A DNA stretch of 14,356 nt from Thermococcaceae archaeon (GTDB lineage Archaea > Methanobacteriota_B > Thermococci > Thermococcales > Thermococcaceae). The stretch covers positions 1-14,356 of the forward strand of contig JAMOPD010000152.1 in the NCBI GenBank assembly GCA_027064745.1, in the 5' to 3' direction. Shown piece after piece: positions 1-8,507 of this stretch; within the stretch, counting starts at the first letter, position 1; each line of letters opens with the position of its first letter. Position numbers and translations under genes: made by a program. The notes beneath the pieces were generated by a model. It searched no databases, had not been told where the DNA came from, and saw only the letters and a program-made list of their open reading frames with translations.

Positions 1-1977
1 GACATTGACAAAATGATAGGAGAATTAGCCCTAAAGATACTGGAGAATATTGAAACCTCTCTCGAACAGCTTTCTACATTCCACAGGTTCTTGTTCCCTC
101 CGGAAATAAAAGCAGAATATGGACAATATGAAAAGGAAGTCGGCCAAATGCTCAGGGATTTAACAACATTTGACATTAGACCTTCTCAGATAAGTAACTT
201 GGATGAATTGAGACGTCTGGTCAGCACTGATATAACCAAAAAAGAACGTCAACTGCAATCCCTGGAGATAGAGACTGAAAACATTAAGAGAGAAATGAGT
301 GAGATCGAAGAACAGGTTGCTAAAACTATAGAGCTAACATCAAGGCAATTAAATGAATATTACGAGATTATAAAACTTGCTCCTTCACTTGAAGGCAAGC
401 TAAGAGAATCTTCAAGGAAGATAAATAACATGCTAGAAGATTTAAGAGTAAAGATAACCTCTGAACGGATAAATAAAAATCTTGAACCTGAAAGCTTGGC
501 AAGAAGTGTTAACGAGGAATTTGATCTCGCAATGACCAATATGAGGACAATAATAAACCAGTTATCTTCAATATTCCCCTCAGATCCTGACATACATTCT
601 CTTAAGAACTTCTTAGAGTACCTGAATCTAGTCAAAAACACAATGCTACACTACTATGGATACATGTATTATACTTACAGACAGGAACACAGAAGCTTCA
701 GTGAAAAGATAACAGGAAAAGATTACTCCACACAAATAAGTGATTATGAGAATGAATATGACAGTGACATAACCGGAAGAATAAGATTCAGAGACTTCTT
801 CAAATATGTTAACATTATCACTGATGAAGAAGGTGGAATTGAAAACGTGCAGATGAGCCGCATATACGATGTTATAAGTACAATCATAAAGCGCATATTT
901 GATAATATCCAGCTGGAGATATCAAATAACTTAGGTAACAAGCTCAACATAGAGATGGGAGAACTTAATCTTCAGGAGCTGGCAGAGGGAAGTCAGTCAA
1001 GCAGAGAGTTTATTACAAAAGTAAAGGACGTTGTATATGAAAAAACAATTGAAAAACGTGGGCTTTCAGAGAAACTCAAAGAAATTGAAGAAGAAAAGGC
1101 TAAACTTAATCAGGAGATGCTCATCCTAAGAGACTTCTATGATATACTGAGTAAAATGCTGGATATGGTTGCTGATCTTTCTGTCAGAATACAGAAGGAA
1201 TGGCATGATGAAATTGATAGATATCATAGAAGTATAAAGAAACTGAAGAAATACTTAGAAGAGAAAGCCTCCAAGAGACAGGAGAGAGGTACCTTCATCT
1301 ATAAAGTACAGCCATCTCCAGAGGCTCTTGGATTAATACTTGATGTATTTAATAGTAATCTCTCTTTAATACTACAAAACCCAAGTTTATCTCATTTAGC
1401 TCAGATTGAGTCAAGAAAAATCATGAATGCCTTTAAAGAGCTATTTTCAACTCTACTTTACCCAAACTATCTTGGACTACAGAGAGGAAGGGCTATCGTT
1501 GAAGATGAATGGACTCCAATTGAATGGAGTGTTCCTGGATCAATGGTCTATGTTAGCTCCCCCATAAATGAAACACCAGGAGAAATGAACCAGCAGATAA
1601 AAGAAGCTGTCATAGATATCCTGCGGAGAACTTTGCATCCTGGAAGAGAGCCGTACTATGTTCCACTTGCTGCAGGTTCTTCATGGGATATAGCAACAAC
1701 GATTTTTGTTCCAGGAGTATTCTTAGAAAACATCTACGGCTTATACCAGATAAACGGTAGCTTCTATGATGCATACTACTCACTCAAAACCTCAGGAGAA
1801 CGGAGAGAAATATTCCACCACATATACAAACTAGAAGATGGATGGTACATAGAAAGGGTACCCATGGATCCTGATGAGGCCATTAAATATGCTGCAGATG
1901 AGCTTGCCAATAAAGATGTAACAACTGAGATAGTCAAGAAATATTACATAAAGCACTCGATACTTCCAGAAGACTGA
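1..1977 (+). CDS. Large soluble coiled-coil protein, 5' end outside the window; first visible gene of the GTPase cluster
   Basis: The frame is open back to base 1 (codons for D-I-D-K precede the first ATG at 13), and that ATG has no GGTGA or GGAGG site before it, so the gene probably begins upstream; if not, it starts at 13. Counting from the ATG, about 654 residues are visible. Residues about 70-135 and 340-375 are rich in E, K, Q and L with heptad-like spacing and should form coiled coils. The stretch between them is helical with a Tyr-rich patch (about 215-225). The C-terminal 230 residues look globular, with several aromatic and Gly-Pro positions. No signal peptide, membrane helix or Walker motif is visible, so it is probably cytosolic. 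I do not recognise the family. The gene ends 16 bases before the GTPase gene and is probably co-transcribed with it. A tubulin-like N-terminal domain upstream is possible but unseen. Confidence 0.85.
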   Translation, partial: DIDKMIGELALKILENIETSLEQLSTFHRFLFPPEIKAEYGQYEKEVGQMLRDLTTFDIRPSQISNLDELRRLVSTDITKKERQLQSLEIETENIKREMSEIEEQVAKTIELTSRQLNEYYEIIKLAPSLEGKLRESSRKINNMLEDLRVKITSERINKNLEPESLARSVNEEFDLAMTNMRTIINQLSSIFPSDPDIHSLKNFLEYLNLVKNTMLHYYGYMYYTYRQEHRSFSEKITGKDYSTQISDYENEYDSDITGRIRFRDFFKYVNIITDEEGGIENVQMSRIYDVISTIIKRIFDNIQLEISNNLGNKLNIEMGELNLQELAEGSQSSREFITKVKDVVYEKTIEKRGLSEKLKEIEEEKAKLNQEMLILRDFYDILSKMLDMVADLSVRIQKEWHDEIDRYHRSIKKLKKYLEEKASKRQERGTFIYKVQPSPEALGLILDVFNSNLSLILQNPSLSHLAQIESRKIMNAFKELFSTLLYPNYLGLQRGRAIVEDEWTPIEWSVPGSMVYVSSPINETPGEMNQQIKEAVIDILRRTLHPGREPYYVPLAAGSSWDIATTIFVPGVFLENIYGLYQINGSFYDAYYSLKTSGERREIFHHIYKLEDGWYIERVPMDPDEAIKYAADELANKDVTTEIVKKYYIKHSILPED

Positions 1978-1993
1978 AGGGGTGAGCTAGGAC

Positions 1994-3766
1994 ATGAAAA
2001 TCAAAAGTATTGAGTCATTTGGTATTCTCTCTTTTTTTACCTACATGGCTTTTGGAGTTATTTTCTATTTTCTGATCAAGCTCCTATTGGGTGGTGCTGA
2101 ATATTCTCAAATGTTTCACAGCATCACTAATAGTACATTGTTCATAGTTGTTTCAGGGTTAACTCTAGGTCTTGTAACCATAACTGGACTCACCAGAGAG
2201 ACTTCTTATGCAAGAAAAGGTTTTGGATTTCTCCTTGGAATCCTGCTCCCAATAGTCTCTGGTAGTTTTTCAGAGATATACTTCCTAATCTCTCTTGGAA
2301 TCGGGCTTTTACTTGGCCTTATAATGATCTTCAGGCCTATTGGACAACTAAAACTCGCCAAAGGCTTTGGAGTGCTCCCGCTTCTTGTAATAATGCTGCC
2401 CTTTTTGTCCGAGCTTTTATGGATGGCAAAAAATGGTACTTTAACAGCTGAACTTGATAAGGCTCTGGTGTATGCTAAGATTGTTGTTGCAATCCTCATA
2501 GCAGACGTATTAATACACCGCACATTTGCACATGCCGCAAAAGTCGAAGAATCTATGGAAGAGTCTGTCATCTTTGTCGGACCCACAATGTCTGGAAAAA
2601 CTGTGCTTTCAATAGGCTTATTTTATGAAATAGTCCAGAAAGGTTTAGGTGGTCTTGAAGTCAGGGAGGATTCATTGGTTCTAGGAGATGAACCCATAGG
2701 GCTCGAAGATCTTTACATCTTCTTTAGAAACAACGGATTCGATGGCATTAAAGGTACACAGAGAGGATGGCTCTCAATCCAATATTTCAGCATTATTAGA
2801 CCGTTTATTGATAAATTTCTTTACGGTTTAAAGGATATTTCCATGGAGATAACAGACTATGCAGGTGAAGACATTAGGAAGATAGCTCGAATGATAGAAA
2901 AGAAAACTGAGTATAGAGAGCTAATAAAAACCCTGAGAGAAGCACTGAAAGATGAAACCTTCCTAAAAGAAGGTATAGTAGCTCCACCAAAGATAAAAGA
3001 CGAAGAAGGTCGGATAAAATATGCCAACAAAGTGATAGATTCGCTTATTAAAGATTTAGAGAACTATAACTTTGATTTCAGAGATTATTCTGATAGGATA
3101 AAATGGGAGAAAGTGCCGGCAGCAGCCAGAGCAGATTTGGCAACAGCATATACATTCGGAAAACTCATGAGAGCTGAAAGGTTGGTATTTATAATTGATG
3201 GTGCTAAGTTGCTCTATGAATTATATACAAGAAGCCCAGACATCATTGGAAATCTTGAATTCTTAAAGAAGAATAACCCTTACTATTACAAACAGATAAA
3301 CAGCATAATAAAATGGCACGAAGCTCGGAGAGAAACTAATGAAAAGTTGATAGAAGGAACACTGGAAGGAGATATAAAAGCATATACAAGAATAGCAACT
3401 GAATTCAAAAAACGAAAAGGTAGTGGAAACTTCATTTTCCTTGTTACAAAGGCAGATTTAATAGCAGCTCTTTTTGATCCCGAAAATGTTATTCATGCGA
3501 GAACAAGAGGATTGAAGAAGAGAATAGTCAAGATACTTAGGAAGAGCATACTCTTCAAGAACCTTATGAGAGAACTTAAAATTCAAGAGAAAGAATTGCA
3601 GGATAAACTGAAGATATCTATGATAGTATCTGCTACTGATTTAAAGAAAATCGACATGACTGCAGCATTCAGAGATGAAGTTCGGACAGCTGGACTTGAT
3701 GAACTTATAGAATGGATACGAAAACTACCACCCTCAAAAATTATCTCAGAGGTTGTTAAGCCATGA
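1994..3766 (+). CDS. Polytopic membrane protein with a C-terminal GTPase domain
   Basis: A 590-residue protein. Residues 10-175 hold about six hydrophobic segments (near 10-32, 48-66, 75-91, 95-113, 125-145, 157-174). A P-loop GTPase-like domain follows, facing the cytosol by inference: G1 GPTMSGKT at 196-203, a G3-like D-Y-A-G-E at 288-292, a hydrophobic strand ending in I-I-D at 400-402, G4 TKAD at 485-488 and a G5-like VSATD at 545-549. The DxAGE form of G3 and TKxD favour a GTPase over an AAA or ABC ATPase. About 105 mostly helical, charged residues separate G3 from the next strand, an unusually large switch II-side insertion. The start at 1994 has GGTGA eight bases upstream. It sits second in the cluster and its stop overlaps the next start (ATGA). 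It may be the membrane switch of the system; substrate and partners are unknown. It resembles the 'distinct GTPase' and double-GTPase-type families, but the exact family needs a profile search. Confidence 0.88.
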   Translation: MKIKSIESFGILSFFTYMAFGVIFYFLIKLLLGGAEYSQMFHSITNSTLFIVVSGLTLGLVTITGLTRETSYARKGFGFLLGILLPIVSGSFSEIYFLISLGIGLLLGLIMIFRPIGQLKLAKGFGVLPLLVIMLPFLSELLWMAKNGTLTAELDKALVYAKIVVAILIADVLIHRTFAHAAKVEESMEESVIFVGPTMSGKTVLSIGLFYEIVQKGLGGLEVREDSLVLGDEPIGLEDLYIFFRNNGFDGIKGTQRGWLSIQYFSIIRPFIDKFLYGLKDISMEITDYAGEDIRKIARMIEKKTEYRELIKTLREALKDETFLKEGIVAPPKIKDEEGRIKYANKVIDSLIKDLENYNFDFRDYSDRIKWEKVPAAARADLATAYTFGKLMRAERLVFIIDGAKLLYELYTRSPDIIGNLEFLKKNNPYYYKQINSIIKWHEARRETNEKLIEGTLEGDIKAYTRIATEFKKRKGSGNFIFLVTKADLIAALFDPENVIHARTRGLKKRIVKILRKSILFKNLMRELKIQEKELQDKLKISMIVSATDLKKIDMTAAFRDEVRTAGLDELIEWIRKLPPSKIISEVVKP

Positions 3767-4428
3767 GTGAATATGGATTTTACACTACGGAAGGCGTAGT
3801 ATTAGTGAAAACAGAAAACCATGAAACATGCAAAAGCCTTGTATCTTTAATAGATAAATATTCCTCATGGGTTACATTCGTCTCAGGTTTCAAAAATGGA
3901 ACAGTCAAAACCTATGTAGGGGCAAGATTTGATTATGTTAAATATTGGAGCAGCAGATACAGCAGAGGAATTCTTCTTGTTGATGTACCAAAAATAAAAA
4001 GTATGCCCAAGGCATTCATAGATGCTATCGAAAATCTAAGAAGTGAAGAAAGTTTAGACTTTACAACTGAAATTGATACATACCTACGGAAAGACTCCAA
4101 TACAGCCGAACTTAAGGACGATCTAGAAGAGATTAAAGATGTTACCCGAGAATACCTTGAGAGTATTGACAAGAGTGGTATCATTAGTACAAAGAGCATA
4201 AAACTTCCAAAGTTTAACAAAGTTACTTACCCCACAATCTTGTACAGATGGTTATTTCTGAGAGCAATAAGCACAGTCCTAGCGGAATACGAGGATGATA
4301 TTGGGGGAATACGACCTTTGAACAATATTCTAAAAGAGGATGAGATACTATACCCTCTAATCCATTATTCCAAATTCCATGCCAAACATCTTTCAGCTTT
4401 ATGGTTTTCAAATGACGCTCCTCTTTAG
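3763..4428 (+). CDS. Uncharacterised 221-residue cytosolic protein, translationally coupled to the GTPase
   Basis: I do not recognise this protein. Its ATG overlaps the stop of the GTPase gene (ATGA at 3763-3766), the usual sign of translational coupling, with a weak GAGG about nine bases upstream. Residues 1-95 read as alternating strands and helices, including a hydrophobic strand at about 69-74. Residues 100-140 form an acidic, probably helical linker. Residues 155-205 are helical with many aromatics. There is no signal peptide, clear membrane helix, Cys cluster or nucleotide-binding motif, so it is probably soluble. Immediate coupling to the GTPase makes a regulator, effector or adaptor of that protein the simplest guess, but this is inference from position only. 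It ends 12 bases before the next gene. Confidence 0.82.
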   Translation: MSEYGFYTTEGVVLVKTENHETCKSLVSLIDKYSSWVTFVSGFKNGTVKTYVGARFDYVKYWSSRYSRGILLVDVPKIKSMPKAFIDAIENLRSEESLDFTTEIDTYLRKDSNTAELKDDLEEIKDVTREYLESIDKSGIISTKSIKLPKFNKVTYPTILYRWLFLRAISTVLAEYEDDIGGIRPLNNILKEDEILYPLIHYSKFHAKHLSALWFSNDAPL

Positions 4429-4440
4429 GGGGGATGGTAA

Positions 4441-6186
4441 ATGGTAACTGTGGATATTAATTTATATGATACTGAAGGGCTTTCCCTGTTTAAAGAAGGA
4501 GAACCTATCCCTTGGTCTGAGATTGGAATGACATATGAAAATATTGACAAACTCGGTGTCTGGCTTTTGATGAATAAAACTAATCGACGAGTTACAATTG
4601 CCATGAGACTTAGGGCTTCCATTAGAGAGCGGGAAAATAGCAGAGCCATTATGACCATGAGAATTAATTATGCTCATGAAAATGAACTCGACAAGCTTGT
4701 TGAGAAATTCCCAGAGATAATAGAGAACTTTCTTAAAAAAGTGGAGGGAAAAGGAATAGCCTCATACAAAGAACCCATAGAAACATCTCCTAAGTGGGAT
4801 TATCTAGTTGAATATATCTCAAGAACTGCCAGAGTACTGAGATACTTCCGAGAAATGCCAAAAATAAAGCTACCACATTTGAATTATTCGGATCCTTCCA
4901 TCTCTGAGAGAGGAGAAATGTTTAAGTTTTTCCTACATCTCAGCAGAAGCATTGGTGGTGCTACATTTGTAGGGATATTTTCTAAAAATTGCCCCGCATC
5001 GCGGAATGCAGTGATGATATGTGGTGAGGGTAGGCCCATAGAAGAGCTAGAAGCAAAAATTGAAGCAGCTCGTTTAAAGAAAAAAAGGAAAACAAGAACT
5101 GTTGAGAAATCTGAGAAAAAAGGAGCAACAATAGTATATTCAGTTGGTGCTTTTATTCTTGGAGCATTGTTGATTCTTGGACTTGTTTATGCGGGGATAC
5201 TCGGAGGGGAGTCTGCAAAAACCGAGAAGAGTGTGATAACTCCTCCAAATGAAGAAAAACTTCAAGAACTACAAAAAGAGATCAATAATTTACAGAATTC
5301 TAAAAGTATAGAAGTTCTAGAAGATTACCTAAGATTTGCAAACAACAAGACAGCCAACATGAATACACTATTACAATTCATCCAAAAAGACATAGCTATA
5401 CATAAAGAGTATCAGACAGAGTTATCCAAATTAATTGAAGAAAACAAAACCTTAGCAAAAGAGCGCGATAAATTAGAGCGAGAGCTAAAGCAAGAGAGAG
5501 ATAAACTGAAAAATCTCCAAAACAGTATAGGTGAGTTTAACACTGAGAGCAAATATTTTGCACTGGTGATCGGCAAAAACAACATTACTCTAAAGCCAGA
5601 GGACATAAAGAAGCTTAGCAAGGGGGATGGAATAAAAGAATGGCTTATCATAATGAAAGGACAGTGTAAGATAGTTGCAAATCAAAGAGCTGGTATTTAC
5701 ATCACAGAATTAACAGACTTTAACAAAACCCTAGCCAATTATTCAGAGACTCTTGATAAAATATCCTGGTATCTAGAGCAAATGAACTCTACGAAAGCTA
5801 AATCATTCAAGCAATCAAGGGATAAACTTCTCGCTCAGCAGAAAGAGTTACAAACTATCGGTAATAACATTAAAAATTCATTAAAAACAATAAACTCATG
5901 TAAAGTTGCTTATAATATGGAAAAGAACTGGAGCAAAGAGGTATCGGAGATTAAAAATATAAAGAGTCTTTATTCTGAACCACTAAAACTTGTTCTAGAA
6001 GTAAAAGCAAAAGGAATAAACAGCACATTAATACAAGGACCAATCCTCGATTATGCACATAAGAGAGGATATTCCGATGAACAACTCCAGAACAAAATAA
6101 ATGAGCTCTTTGCTTCTGCCAACAATGACTTAGAGTTGTTCATGAAATTTGAAGAACTCCTTAAGTGGATAATGGAGGGAGGGTAA
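4441..6186 (+). CDS. Single-pass membrane protein with cytosolic N-domain and extracellular coiled coil
   Basis: A 581-residue protein of unrecognised family. Residues 1-205 lack hydrophobic helices and look like a folded alpha/beta domain. A strongly basic stretch (about 211-227, many K and R) is followed by one membrane helix at about 229-254. By the positive-inside rule the N-domain is cytosolic and residues 255-581 are outside. The outer part is almost wholly helical, with coiled coil at about 320-366 (E/K/L heptads). It carries eight N-x-S/T sequons (N302, N335, N381, N428, N433, N449, N496, N527) against two in the N-domain, which supports surface exposure and possible AglB-type glycosylation. 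A G-rich site (GGGGGG, 4429-4434) precedes the ATG. Its stop shares one base with the next start (TAATG at 6184-6188), so the secreted partner is probably made at the same time. Its design suits a transmembrane connector between the GTPase side and the outer protein. Confidence 0.88.
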   Translation: MVTVDINLYDTEGLSLFKEGEPIPWSEIGMTYENIDKLGVWLLMNKTNRRVTIAMRLRASIRERENSRAIMTMRINYAHENELDKLVEKFPEIIENFLKKVEGKGIASYKEPIETSPKWDYLVEYISRTARVLRYFREMPKIKLPHLNYSDPSISERGEMFKFFLHLSRSIGGATFVGIFSKNCPASRNAVMICGEGRPIEELEAKIEAARLKKKRKTRTVEKSEKKGATIVYSVGAFILGALLILGLVYAGILGGESAKTEKSVITPPNEEKLQELQKEINNLQNSKSIEVLEDYLRFANNKTANMNTLLQFIQKDIAIHKEYQTELSKLIEENKTLAKERDKLERELKQERDKLKNLQNSIGEFNTESKYFALVIGKNNITLKPEDIKKLSKGDGIKEWLIIMKGQCKIVANQRAGIYITELTDFNKTLANYSETLDKISWYLEQMNSTKAKSFKQSRDKLLAQQKELQTIGNNIKNSLKTINSCKVAYNMEKNWSKEVSEIKNIKSLYSEPLKLVLEVKAKGINSTLIQGPILDYAHKRGYSDEQLQNKINELFASANNDLELFMKFEELLKWIMEGG

Positions 6187-8264
6187 TGAGAAAATCCCTC
6201 TCCTTCTTTCTAATCTTCCTAGTGTTATTAGATTTCCTTGGAAATACATACATATCCGCTGGAGTGCTTTATACAAAAACAATATGGCTAAACAGAGGCG
6301 ACTCTGATGAATACTACTACTTCACCATAACTCTGGAAGATATTGATGTTTTGGGGAGTTCAGCTATGATAGGAGTTTCCGGAATCCAAGGAAGCCAAGA
6401 CATAGTTCTTCAACTTTCAGGGCAGAATAGCATAGATGTATTCGGAGATGAAAGTATAACAATCACACTTCTTGATTTAGGTTCCAGTTCAGCAAAGATT
6501 ACAATAGCAGTTGATGTTGAAGCTCTTGCAAATGTGGCATATAACCTCCTAAAAAATAAAATTCAAGAAGCTGAGGATGCAGGATTACTACCTCAGAGCA
6601 AGATAGACACTTACAAAAATTCTCTGGATTCTGCATCAAGTTATATAAAAATAGGGGACTATATAAGTGCTATAGATCTCTGCAAAACTACAATAACCTC
6701 TATAGATGAAGATACAAAACTCGCTAAAGATGCAAAAAAGGCAATAGACAATGCAACACTTATTATAAATAACCCAAAACTTGTGGATAAAGACTGTAAC
6801 AGCTGTCCTGAATCAATCGTGTCAACAGCCAACACAAAGCTCAAGCAAGCTAAAAATGCCTTTGATTCTGGAGATTTTATATCTGCCAAGGATCTAGCAG
6901 TAGAAGCCGCCACATTAATTGAAGAGTGTTGTAAATCATGTAAGATCTATCCTGACAAAGAGAAGAGTGTAGAAAATTTCTTAAAAAGCCAATCAAGTGA
7001 AATACCCTTAGATCCAGCATGGACTAAAATAAATGATGCTAAAAGGGAATACGAAAATGGGGACTGTATCAAAGCTATCCACTATTTAGATACTGCGAAG
7101 TCTCTTGCTGAGGATATAATAAAAGGCTGGAATAATGCCAAAAATTGTAGGAGCACACTTCTATCAATGATATCTGAGGCAACATCTAAATATGTGATAA
7201 GCTACGGTACCGGTACAAAGATTCAAATAGCCCTCGCAGATATTGAAGATCGGATATACCCAGAGATTACAGAATATATGAGAAAAGGCTATTTCTCAAC
7301 AGCTGTGACAAACTGTAATGCATTAAAAACTGAAGTGGAAGATCGGATAAAGGCATTTGAACAAACATGGGAGCAGATGAACAAATCATACAGTGTTCTA
7401 ACAACTTTACAATCCAAAGGATATAAGATTGATAGTGCTTGGGAGGCATACAACAAGGCAATTAAATTTTTCCAAGAAGGAAGTTATACCAAAGCATCTG
7501 TGGAATTCGAAAAAGCCAAGAATATAGCCGAACAAATTGAATCATATGCATCTGAAGCCCAGAGGATAAAAAACAAAACAGAAAGCTGTCTTCTAAACCT
7601 CAAAACTAATGGTATTAATGTGGATATCATATTCAAGGAAGACATTAACAAAGCTGAGAAGTTGTATTCCTCAGGTGATTATACTGAAGCAGAGAAGCAG
7701 TGGACTGTCATACTTAAAAAGTGCCAAGACCCAGATATTGCAAATGCTATAAAACAGCGAAAAACGACATACACGAGATACTCACAGATAAAAGCCGAAA
7801 AAATAGTTATTCCATCCAGCATATCCAAACAGCTCCAAGAAGCGGATGAATATTTTGCAAGTGGGAAATTCAAAGAAGCAAGTGCCCAATATGCGAAGGT
7901 AACTGAACAACTAAATAACTTAGAGAGAACCGCTAAAGATGCTATGAATGAAATTAAACAAAGTGAAGAATTTCTAAATTCCGACGTTCCCCAATATGAG
8001 AAGATTTCAAAACTACTTGGTATACCCCAACTAAAGCTACGTGCAAAAATCCTGAAAGAATCGATTGAAAACGCTAGTAAGGCATATGCCTCAGGGGACT
8101 ATTCAAAAGCTGCAAAATATGTATCAAAAATAGAAGAGATAAGGAATGATATGGACGGAGATGGGATTCCAGACAATGTTGACATTTTGCCACAGCTTCC
8201 AAACTATTATCTACTCGGGGGAATAGTAGTGCTACTGCTTTTCCTGATAAATATCTTTAAATGA
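6186..8264 (+). CDS. Secreted, membrane-anchored surface protein with eight helical G-D-Y repeats and a Ca-binding-type motif
   Basis: An in-frame ATG at 6165 exists, but ATG 6186 is chosen because GGAGGGAGGG lies just before it and the product then starts with a classic signal peptide (basic MRK, then a hydrophobic core to about residue 19). That gives 692 residues. Residues 27-115 are Ser/Thr/Gly-rich and look like a beta domain. From about 120 to 650 the chain is helical, with a turn motif G-[D/x]-[Y/F]-x-x-A recurring eight times (glycines at 157, 229, 292, 368, 432, 497, 560, 637), a spacing of about 63-77 residues, TPR-like in character. Residues 655-669 hold D-x-D-G-D-G-I-P-D, a thrombospondin type 3-like calcium motif, just before a terminal membrane helix (about 673-691). 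Paired cysteines (204/207, 248/249/252) could form disulfides outside the cell. It ends the cluster and is probably its outer-face component. Family unrecognised. Confidence 0.88.
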   Translation: MRKSLSFFLIFLVLLDFLGNTYISAGVLYTKTIWLNRGDSDEYYYFTITLEDIDVLGSSAMIGVSGIQGSQDIVLQLSGQNSIDVFGDESITITLLDLGSSSAKITIAVDVEALANVAYNLLKNKIQEAEDAGLLPQSKIDTYKNSLDSASSYIKIGDYISAIDLCKTTITSIDEDTKLAKDAKKAIDNATLIINNPKLVDKDCNSCPESIVSTANTKLKQAKNAFDSGDFISAKDLAVEAATLIEECCKSCKIYPDKEKSVENFLKSQSSEIPLDPAWTKINDAKREYENGDCIKAIHYLDTAKSLAEDIIKGWNNAKNCRSTLLSMISEATSKYVISYGTGTKIQIALADIEDRIYPEITEYMRKGYFSTAVTNCNALKTEVEDRIKAFEQTWEQMNKSYSVLTTLQSKGYKIDSAWEAYNKAIKFFQEGSYTKASVEFEKAKNIAEQIESYASEAQRIKNKTESCLLNLKTNGINVDIIFKEDINKAEKLYSSGDYTEAEKQWTVILKKCQDPDIANAIKQRKTTYTRYSQIKAEKIVIPSSISKQLQEADEYFASGKFKEASAQYAKVTEQLNNLERTAKDAMNEIKQSEEFLNSDVPQYEKISKLLGIPQLKLRAKILKESIENASKAYASGDYSKAAKYVSKIEEIRNDMDGDGIPDNVDILPQLPNYYLLGGIVVLLLFLINIFK

Positions 8265-8266
8265 AT

Positions 8267-8309
8267 CTTTTAGCTTTTAATTTCCATTTTATTTTTAATT
8301 TCAGTTTTT
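8267..8309 (+). terminator. T-rich transcription terminator after the five-gene cluster
   Basis: Directly after the stop at 8264 come repeated T runs (near 8268-8271, 8275-8278, 8287-8290, 8292-8296 and 8305-8309). Archaeal RNA polymerase ends transcription at oligo-T on the non-template strand, and Thermococcales ends often carry several such runs. This marks the right end of the cluster transcript. Confidence 0.6.
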
Positions 8310-8507
8310 GTTACCTAGTTCTCATGATTAAAAAATTGGTTTGGATGCTTGTAAATGCCAAGTGGTTGCTCATACAGGCGTTCAAGCAGACACAACCAAA
8401 GACATGACAGGAACTAGGGTTTTTGTCCTTTCAGCGTATGCATGTTGTGATATACTAATAGTCAACAAGAATACCTCTCATGGAGGATTTTGTCCATATC
8501 CACTCAC
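8310..8507. other. Non-coding gap with nested inverted repeats; no credible gene
   Basis: About 200 bases lie between the cluster terminator and the tRNA-His terminator. No ORF here has a ribosome binding site or a recognisable product. Three pairs of arms nest perfectly: TTGGTT (8336-8341) with AACCAA (8394-8399), TGCTTG (8346-8351) with CAAGCA (8383-8388), and GCC (8357-8359) with GGC (8377-8379). Smaller possible stems are TGTTG/CAACA (8443-8447, 8463-8467) and CCTC/GAGG (8474-8477, 8483-8486). No C/D box motif pair and no k-turn of an H/ACA guide was found. It may be a small structured RNA, a leftover of a mobile element, or chance. Confidence 0.3.

Follow-up and report, generated by a model that had tools for sequence, protein, structure and literature searches.

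An archaeal FtsZl1 (Tubulin_2) operon with membrane and surface components in the Thermococcaceae

The window analysed here, a stretch of 14,356 nucleotides from a Thermococcaceae archaeon, constitutes one entire contig (C152, JAMOPD010000152.1) of a 424-contig assembly (GCA_027064745.1) that is 85% complete, and its left-hand part carries five plus-strand genes (Table 1), the first of them open at its 5' end, that belong to an archaeal FtsZl1 (Tubulin_2) operon. A preliminary description of the window had proposed five close-packed genes on one strand, and these are present as open reading frames (ORFs) that overlap or lie within 16 bases of each other, the intergenic distances being +16, -4, +12, and -22 bases, the last when gene 5 is started at the GTG at 6165. 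On the sequence, the ATG at 6186 is the more likely start of gene 5, since it gives a 1-base overlap with the stop of gene 4, is preceded by GGAGGGAGGG, and agrees with the starts in relatives. The terminator-like end noticed after gene 5 also stands out, as the T-run content of this tract is equalled in 0.6% of the 76-nt windows of the sequence (both strands). Moreover, the topologies predicted for the five products agree with a simple hydropathy scan, which counts five transmembrane (TM) segments for gene 2, a single one for gene 4, and none for genes 1 and 3, and which finds a hydrophobic segment at both the N- and the C-terminal end of gene 5.

Table 1. Features of the cluster in the window
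Feature	Description	Positions	Strand
Gene 1	C-terminal 658 residues of an FtsZl1/Tubulin_2-type tubulin-superfamily protein (coiled coil and C-terminal domain)	1..1977	+
Gene 2	Membrane GTPase; five predicted N-terminal TM helices, then P-loop G domain	1994..3766	+
Gene 3	Small soluble alpha-beta protein, paralogue of the gene 4 cytoplasmic part; predicted PAS/roadblock/longin-type fold	3763..4428	+
Gene 4	Single-pass protein; gene-3-like domain ~1-225, TM 231-249, outer coiled coil and helical region	4441..6186	+
Gene 5	Secreted, C-terminally anchored protein; S-layer-type N-terminal domain, TPR-like helical repeats, short DxDxDG segment, TM anchor	6186..8264	+
T-rich tract	Terminator-like, after gene 5	8265..8340	+

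Gene 1 is cut by the end of the contig. Its counterparts in three related genomes (G018, G085, and G007) have 1,124, 1,134, and 1,126 residues, and in the two relatives scanned their N-terminal part is matched by the Pfam model Tubulin_2 (E 9e-13 and 5e-14), with the model Tubulin also above its cut-off. Positions 444-1105 of the FtsZl1 model are found in the window and positions 2-449 at the end of contig C181 of the same assembly, where the terminal bases of C181 (locus L013, 1-19, minus strand) and bases 1-19 of the window overlap exactly over 19 bases. The N half on C181 (467 residues) matches Tubulin_2 with an E-value of 2.4e-12 and contains GLGGGTGSG, a loop that is also present in the three thermococcal relatives. 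As judged from the sequences, gene 1 and the C181 half are one FtsZl1/Tubulin_2 protein of about 1,125 residues split by the assembly. The preliminary description had taken gene 1 for a soluble coiled-coil protein, which is right as to the coiled coil and the lack of TM segments, but the product is a truncated member of the tubulin superfamily. The link that it drew to the tubulin/FtsZ-like system of Makarova and Koonin holds in a more direct form, with gene 1 itself encoding the FtsZl1 protein. Weak SMC/Rad50 matches, which could have pointed to an ordinary coiled-coil protein, are confined to the coiled coil of gene 1 and were set aside, as were DUF4363, EzrA, and tropomyosin-type Pfam matches of the cluster proteins, which fall on repeats or coiled coil and are uninformative.

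After the GTP-binding domain, the predicted model of the FtsZl1 protein shows an extended coiled coil of mostly long helices (residues 320-886) with a small strand pair at 729-744, and it also contains a domain of mixed alpha and beta structure that seems to align with the second domain of FtsZ. The model suggests that the tubulin fold may be complete but split by a coiled coil of about 550 residues. Sequence profiles do not bear this out: when profiles were compared, a tubulin second domain in the FtsZl1 protein received no support, and by profile its resemblance to FtsZ and CetZ is recognisable around the T4 loop only. Sequence matches to solved structures comprise an FtsZ-type chain, CetZ 4b45 (E 0.004), an Asgard tubulin (E 0.006), and a coiled-coil construct. 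In contrast to canonical archaeal FtsZ and CetZ, the FtsZl1 protein is far longer, has a coiled coil that apparently lies inside the fold, and is encoded in a membrane and surface operon.

The product of gene 2 carries the GTPase motifs G1 (GPTMSGKT), G3 (DYAGE), and G4 (TKAD), which in their family form occur in this order in all seven sequences compared (the one in the window, three thermococcal, and three from plasmids), whereas none of 20,000 shuffled gene 2 sequences had all three. A glutamate follows the G3 motif (DYxGE) in 7/7 of these GTPases, a short motif that is weak when taken alone. Five TM segments are also counted in G018 and G007, and four plus one doubtful in G085. The PADLOC model mad8 matches residues 184-408, the G domain (E 8.5e-5), and a literature search on mad8 turned up nothing relevant. 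The best sequence match of the GTPase profile to a solved structure, SRbeta (E 0.019), and the best Pfam lead, YcjX/DUF463 (E 0.031, in G018 only), are too weak to use. No separate promoter is seen before the GTPase gene, in keeping with its placement in a common cluster by the preliminary description: the gap is only 16 bases and a crude TATA-like scan gives an unremarkable 6/9 positions, a scan that likewise did not single out the first gene of the cluster (5 to 8/9 in four genomes). Promoters located inside cluster genes may exist.

Gene 3 is a paralogue of the part of gene 4 that encodes the cytoplasmic domain. No family can be named for gene 3, because Foldseek and a second aligner rank PAS/LOV domains beside roadblock proteins; a DUF7376 match below cut-off (E 7e-4) is a lead only. 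No GAP1 Pfam match was found in genes 3 and 4 or in the relatives scanned, and Pfam presumably contains GAP1 models. At the gene 3 place of G007 there are two overlapping ORFs (L007 7510-8949 and 6777-7664, minus strand; 479 and 295 amino acids), and since both match the gene 3/4 domain, this module is multiplied in that genome. Gene 5 is S-layer-like, sharing one N-terminal sub-domain with the S_layer_N region, but by profile it is no S-layer subunit, as neither S_layer_N nor S_layer_C (PF05123/PF05124) is among its Pfam matches up to E 1. Helical repeats of the gene 5 type are also seen in other Thermococcales, within large surface proteins of the beta-propeller type (L059 119-5068, L057 268-5406, and L058 1458-5135, minus strand). 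Towards its C-terminal end, one of these three proteins carries a protein kinase domain; a second is encoded next to a Vps4-type AAA ATPase.

The cluster has at least one further gene, gene 0, which lies upstream of the FtsZl1 N half on C181 and encodes a protein of 368 residues, whose hydrophobic N-terminal segment is followed by a coiled coil and then by a C-terminal TM segment. A TATA-like stretch, TAACACTTAAATAT, is found upstream of gene 0 in both this genome and G085 (read by eye and missed by the crude scan). After the TM segment, the C-terminal ~45 residues (L013 1425-1560, minus strand) form a GY-rich tail with a glycine every four residues, which is also present in G018 and partly in G085 and is possibly a helix-packing tail.

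In G018, G085, and G007 the gene order is the same, namely, surface coiled-coil protein, FtsZl1, GTPase, gene 3, gene 4, and gene 5. The FtsZl1 gene is found in four of 94 genomes of the family (3/74 at completeness of at least 90% and contamination of at most 5%), and, when 115 genomes of the phylum are searched, each part (FtsZl1, GTPase, gene 3/4 domain, gene 0, and gene 5) has its full-length matches in these four genomes and in no others. Because the profiles were built from them, their own matches arise by construction, and the information lies in the other 111, where no full-length part was found. Before counting, short FtsZl1 matches were set aside in four of eight genomes (56-residue stretches, E 5e-4 to 9e-4) and, in the searches with three further parts, matches were set aside in 1 of 5 genomes (58 residues, E 7e-4), in 63 of 67 (covering no more than the coiled coil and the TM region), and in 80 of 84 (among the matches listed, partial repeat or S-layer-domain matches; for some genomes of this last search, 9 of up to 18 candidates were scored). 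The cluster is inherited as a set in the four genomes. The genes stay together in all four, one of the conditions set by the preliminary description, but conservation across Thermococcales is not supported. Scans of genome contigs and viral contigs returned no relative.

Behind the T-rich tract, the window continues with a tRNA-His gene followed by genes for TYW3, a lipoate ligase family protein, a signal peptidase, a DUF531 protein, a TPR protein, an M19 dipeptidase, and a methyltransferase. The right-hand neighbours TYW3 and lipoate ligase are common to the window and G085, their left-hand neighbours differ (by eye, from translations), and the clusters of G018 and G007 are flanked by other, housekeeping-type genes. 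Because the flanking genes differ and the carriers are few, the cluster is considered patchy and located at three different chromosomal sites in the four genomes. All four contain at least two other FtsZ-type genes besides FtsZl1. A third FtsZ-superfamily gene (frames of 369-386 amino acids) is present in G018, G085, G007, and a further genome, G058, and was not found in the 85% complete assembly that contains the window.

A tblastn search of plasmid records yielded four archaeal plasmids with a relative of the FtsZl1 N-terminal part, over about 30% of the query, from Methanohalobium (E 5e-26), Haloplanus (2e-24), Halorubrum (5e-21), and a Natrialbaceae archaeon (1e-21). Three of them encode, downstream of the tubulin-like gene, a polytopic GTPase with GPxx[ST]GKT, DYPGE, and TKxD. 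Behind this GTPase comes a single-pass protein on the Methanohalobium and Halorubrum plasmids, and on the Natrialbaceae plasmid a small protein as well as a single-pass one; in Haloplanus, no GTPase or single-pass gene is named among the annotated neighbours of an incomplete gene table. Profiles of the thermococcal and plasmid GTPases match over the membrane part and the P-loop (probability 90.8, E 1.2e-6), and single-sequence comparisons of the two groups are weaker (probabilities 62 and 1.5). The gene 3/4 profile gave no sequence match to the N-terminal parts of the plasmid proteins, with which it agrees in position and topology. The Natrialbaceae tubulin-like gene may be broken or wrongly sequenced, because it reads as two ORFs in the record (L026 11911-13194 and 13752-15284). 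On the Halorubrum plasmid, vWA and Hsp70 genes (L025 14-3101, minus strand) lie a few kilobases from the tubulin-like gene, from which a transposase gene separates them, and on that of Methanohalobium the annotated gene directly upstream of the tubulin-like gene is type IV pilin-like (L023 8768-9694).

The thermococcal cluster belongs to the already described FtsZl1 kind. The paper of Makarova and Koonin (2010; PMC2875224) names 8 archaeal FtsZl1 members, implies that the GTPases beside them are membrane-associated, and proposes a role of these systems in membrane remodelling and vesicle biogenesis, while Reviewer 1 of the same paper put forward transport or signalling. T6-H7 elements and the second domain were not found there in FtsZl1, which left the question of filament competence. 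Its alignment legend lists Pyrococcus abyssi between Methanosarcina acetivorans and Halorhabdus utahensis without stating the families of the rows, and from this order the Pyrococcus abyssi row apparently is an FtsZl1 member. The thermococcal proteins resemble that family (PMC2875224) in their length of ~1,050-1,130 amino acids, N-terminal FtsZ-like GTP loop, long coiled coil, and C-terminal domain, and the cluster resembles its archaeal operons in the adjoining membrane-associated GTPase with Walker A, Walker B, and a TxKD-type motif. In contrast to those operons, it has the gene 3/gene 4 paralogue pair, the S-layer-type repeat protein, and gene 0, some of which may belong to the lineage-specific families of the 2010 paper. 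A vWA, OmpA, or kinase gene is described as a majority or frequent, not universal, component (PMC2875224). No Pfam match to vWA, OmpA, or protein kinase is listed for the five genes of the window, the relatives' genes scanned, or 10 flanking proteins, two of the gene 0 lists giving the best 25 matches; the cluster is therefore not classed in the vWA/OmpA/kinase subtype, and the vWA partner looked for in the neighbourhood did not appear. In the version proposed by the preliminary description, two surface proteins may take the OmpA place, and a GTP switch may pull on, or signal through, the link across the membrane. In other literature, a 2023 survey describes Tubulin_2 as a sparse, divergent group and omits it from its main reconstructions, and a Thermococcus barophilus secretome paper reports an FtsZ-like protein near a flagellin.

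A second set of systems invites comparison. The mobile GTPase-tubulin neighbourhoods with membrane and extracellular parts described by Kaur et al. (2020; PMC7159879), including the DO-GTPase/GAP1-N2 systems, share with the thermococcal cluster a GTPase near the membrane, a tubulin with a coiled-coil or helical domain fused to it, extracellular repeats, mobility, and the conserved Walker B glutamate, here DYxGE. However, the thermococcal cluster proteins scanned gave no DO-GTPase match above cut-off and no match to GAP1, FNIII, or HSP70, the best DO-GTPase scores of these GTPases being 13.0 bits (G018) and 14.6 bits (Methanohalobium) against a cut-off of 27. Like the present GTPase, ArvA is an archaeal GTPase whose operon has a proposed role in membrane remodelling, but it is described (PMC10927574) as small and Arf-like, with the partners ArvB and ArvC, and is reported absent from Thermococcus, the two being compared here by description.

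As to function, we infer with a probability of about one in two that the cluster encodes a membrane-anchored FtsZl1 scaffold tied to the envelope and S-layer, the most likely of the readings considered. It is preferred because the cluster has components on either side of the membrane, an S-layer-type domain on the outside and a relative of tubulin with its GTP loop on the inside. FtsZl1 would build, in a GTP-dependent manner, a scaffold bearing coiled coils along the cytoplasmic side of the membrane, the polytopic GTPase could recruit or time it through the paired gene 3 and gene 4 cytoplasmic domains acting as adaptors, and the gene 4 protein, together with gene 0 and gene 5, would form a link across the membrane to the S-layer. 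The likeliest use of such a scaffold would be the shaping or anchoring of a membrane-and-S-layer patch, in local remodelling or at a vesicle or contact site, and not ordinary division. Membership of the FtsZ superfamily would suit a cell-division operon, but this is very improbable, because at least two other FtsZ-type genes are present in all four genomes, and 90 of the 94 family genomes have no FtsZl1 match. A more specific proposal is that complete tubulins with a coiled coil of ~550 residues inserted in the second domain (H9-S8) form bristled filaments, tied by the GTPase and roadblock-like adaptors to the membrane and via the single-pass protein to the S-layer; it is tentative and, on balance, doubtful.

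The main rival is a GTPase-centred conflict or defence system, in which surface and membrane parts would sense an invader and a GTP-driven tubulin-like assembly would stop it. The patchy distribution over three chromosomal sites, the relatives on plasmids of haloarchaea and Methanohalobium, the published mobile tubulin-GTPase neighbourhoods (Kaur et al. 2020), the retained glutamate, and the mad8 match are all consistent with it. Nevertheless, DO-GTPase2 is below cut-off in the proteins scanned and in 4/4 genomes, no GAP1, FNIII, MoxR, or effector domain is present among the cluster proteins scanned, and the other PADLOC matches listed (for gene 0, the best 25 of 39 families) fall on coiled-coil stretches, the strongest being DruC1 on gene 1 (E 3.6e-6), which leaves a conflict role unlikely. 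Somewhat less likely still is a machine in which the GTPase and the tubulin-like scaffold bud the membrane outward into vesicles. The 2010 proposal points in this direction, and Thermococcus makes vesicles by a mechanism described as undetermined, with ArvA reported missing there (PMC10927574), yet the group as a whole cannot depend for its vesicles on a cluster carried by so few genomes. Gene-5-type repeats recur in large surface proteins of the Thermococcales, and a protein kinase domain is joined to one of the three that were scanned. This, together with the suggestion of Reviewer 1, would fit a surface sensor or adhesion complex in which GTPase signalling starts from the gene 5 and gene 4 ectodomains and the tubulin-like protein serves it as a passive scaffold; since no kinase, phosphatase, or transcription factor is found among the cluster proteins scanned, this seems improbable.

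FtsZl1 proteins have been known since 2010, and the literature searched, in which most subscription papers, preprints, and the 2010 supplement were outside the scope, held no experimental study of one. Neither the split tubulin fold nor the co-occurrence test, the gene 3/gene 4 paralogy, and the S-layer-type domain were met with in this literature. According to the predicted model, the second domain may be present and displaced by the coiled-coil insertion, which bears on the filament question raised in 2010. If the proposal of bristled tubulin filaments tied to the S-layer were true, the cluster would represent an archaeal cytoskeleton-to-coat linkage, focal-adhesion-like in its logic. Moreover, the conserved gene set provides a ready list of candidate partners of FtsZl1 in a cultivable group of archaea.

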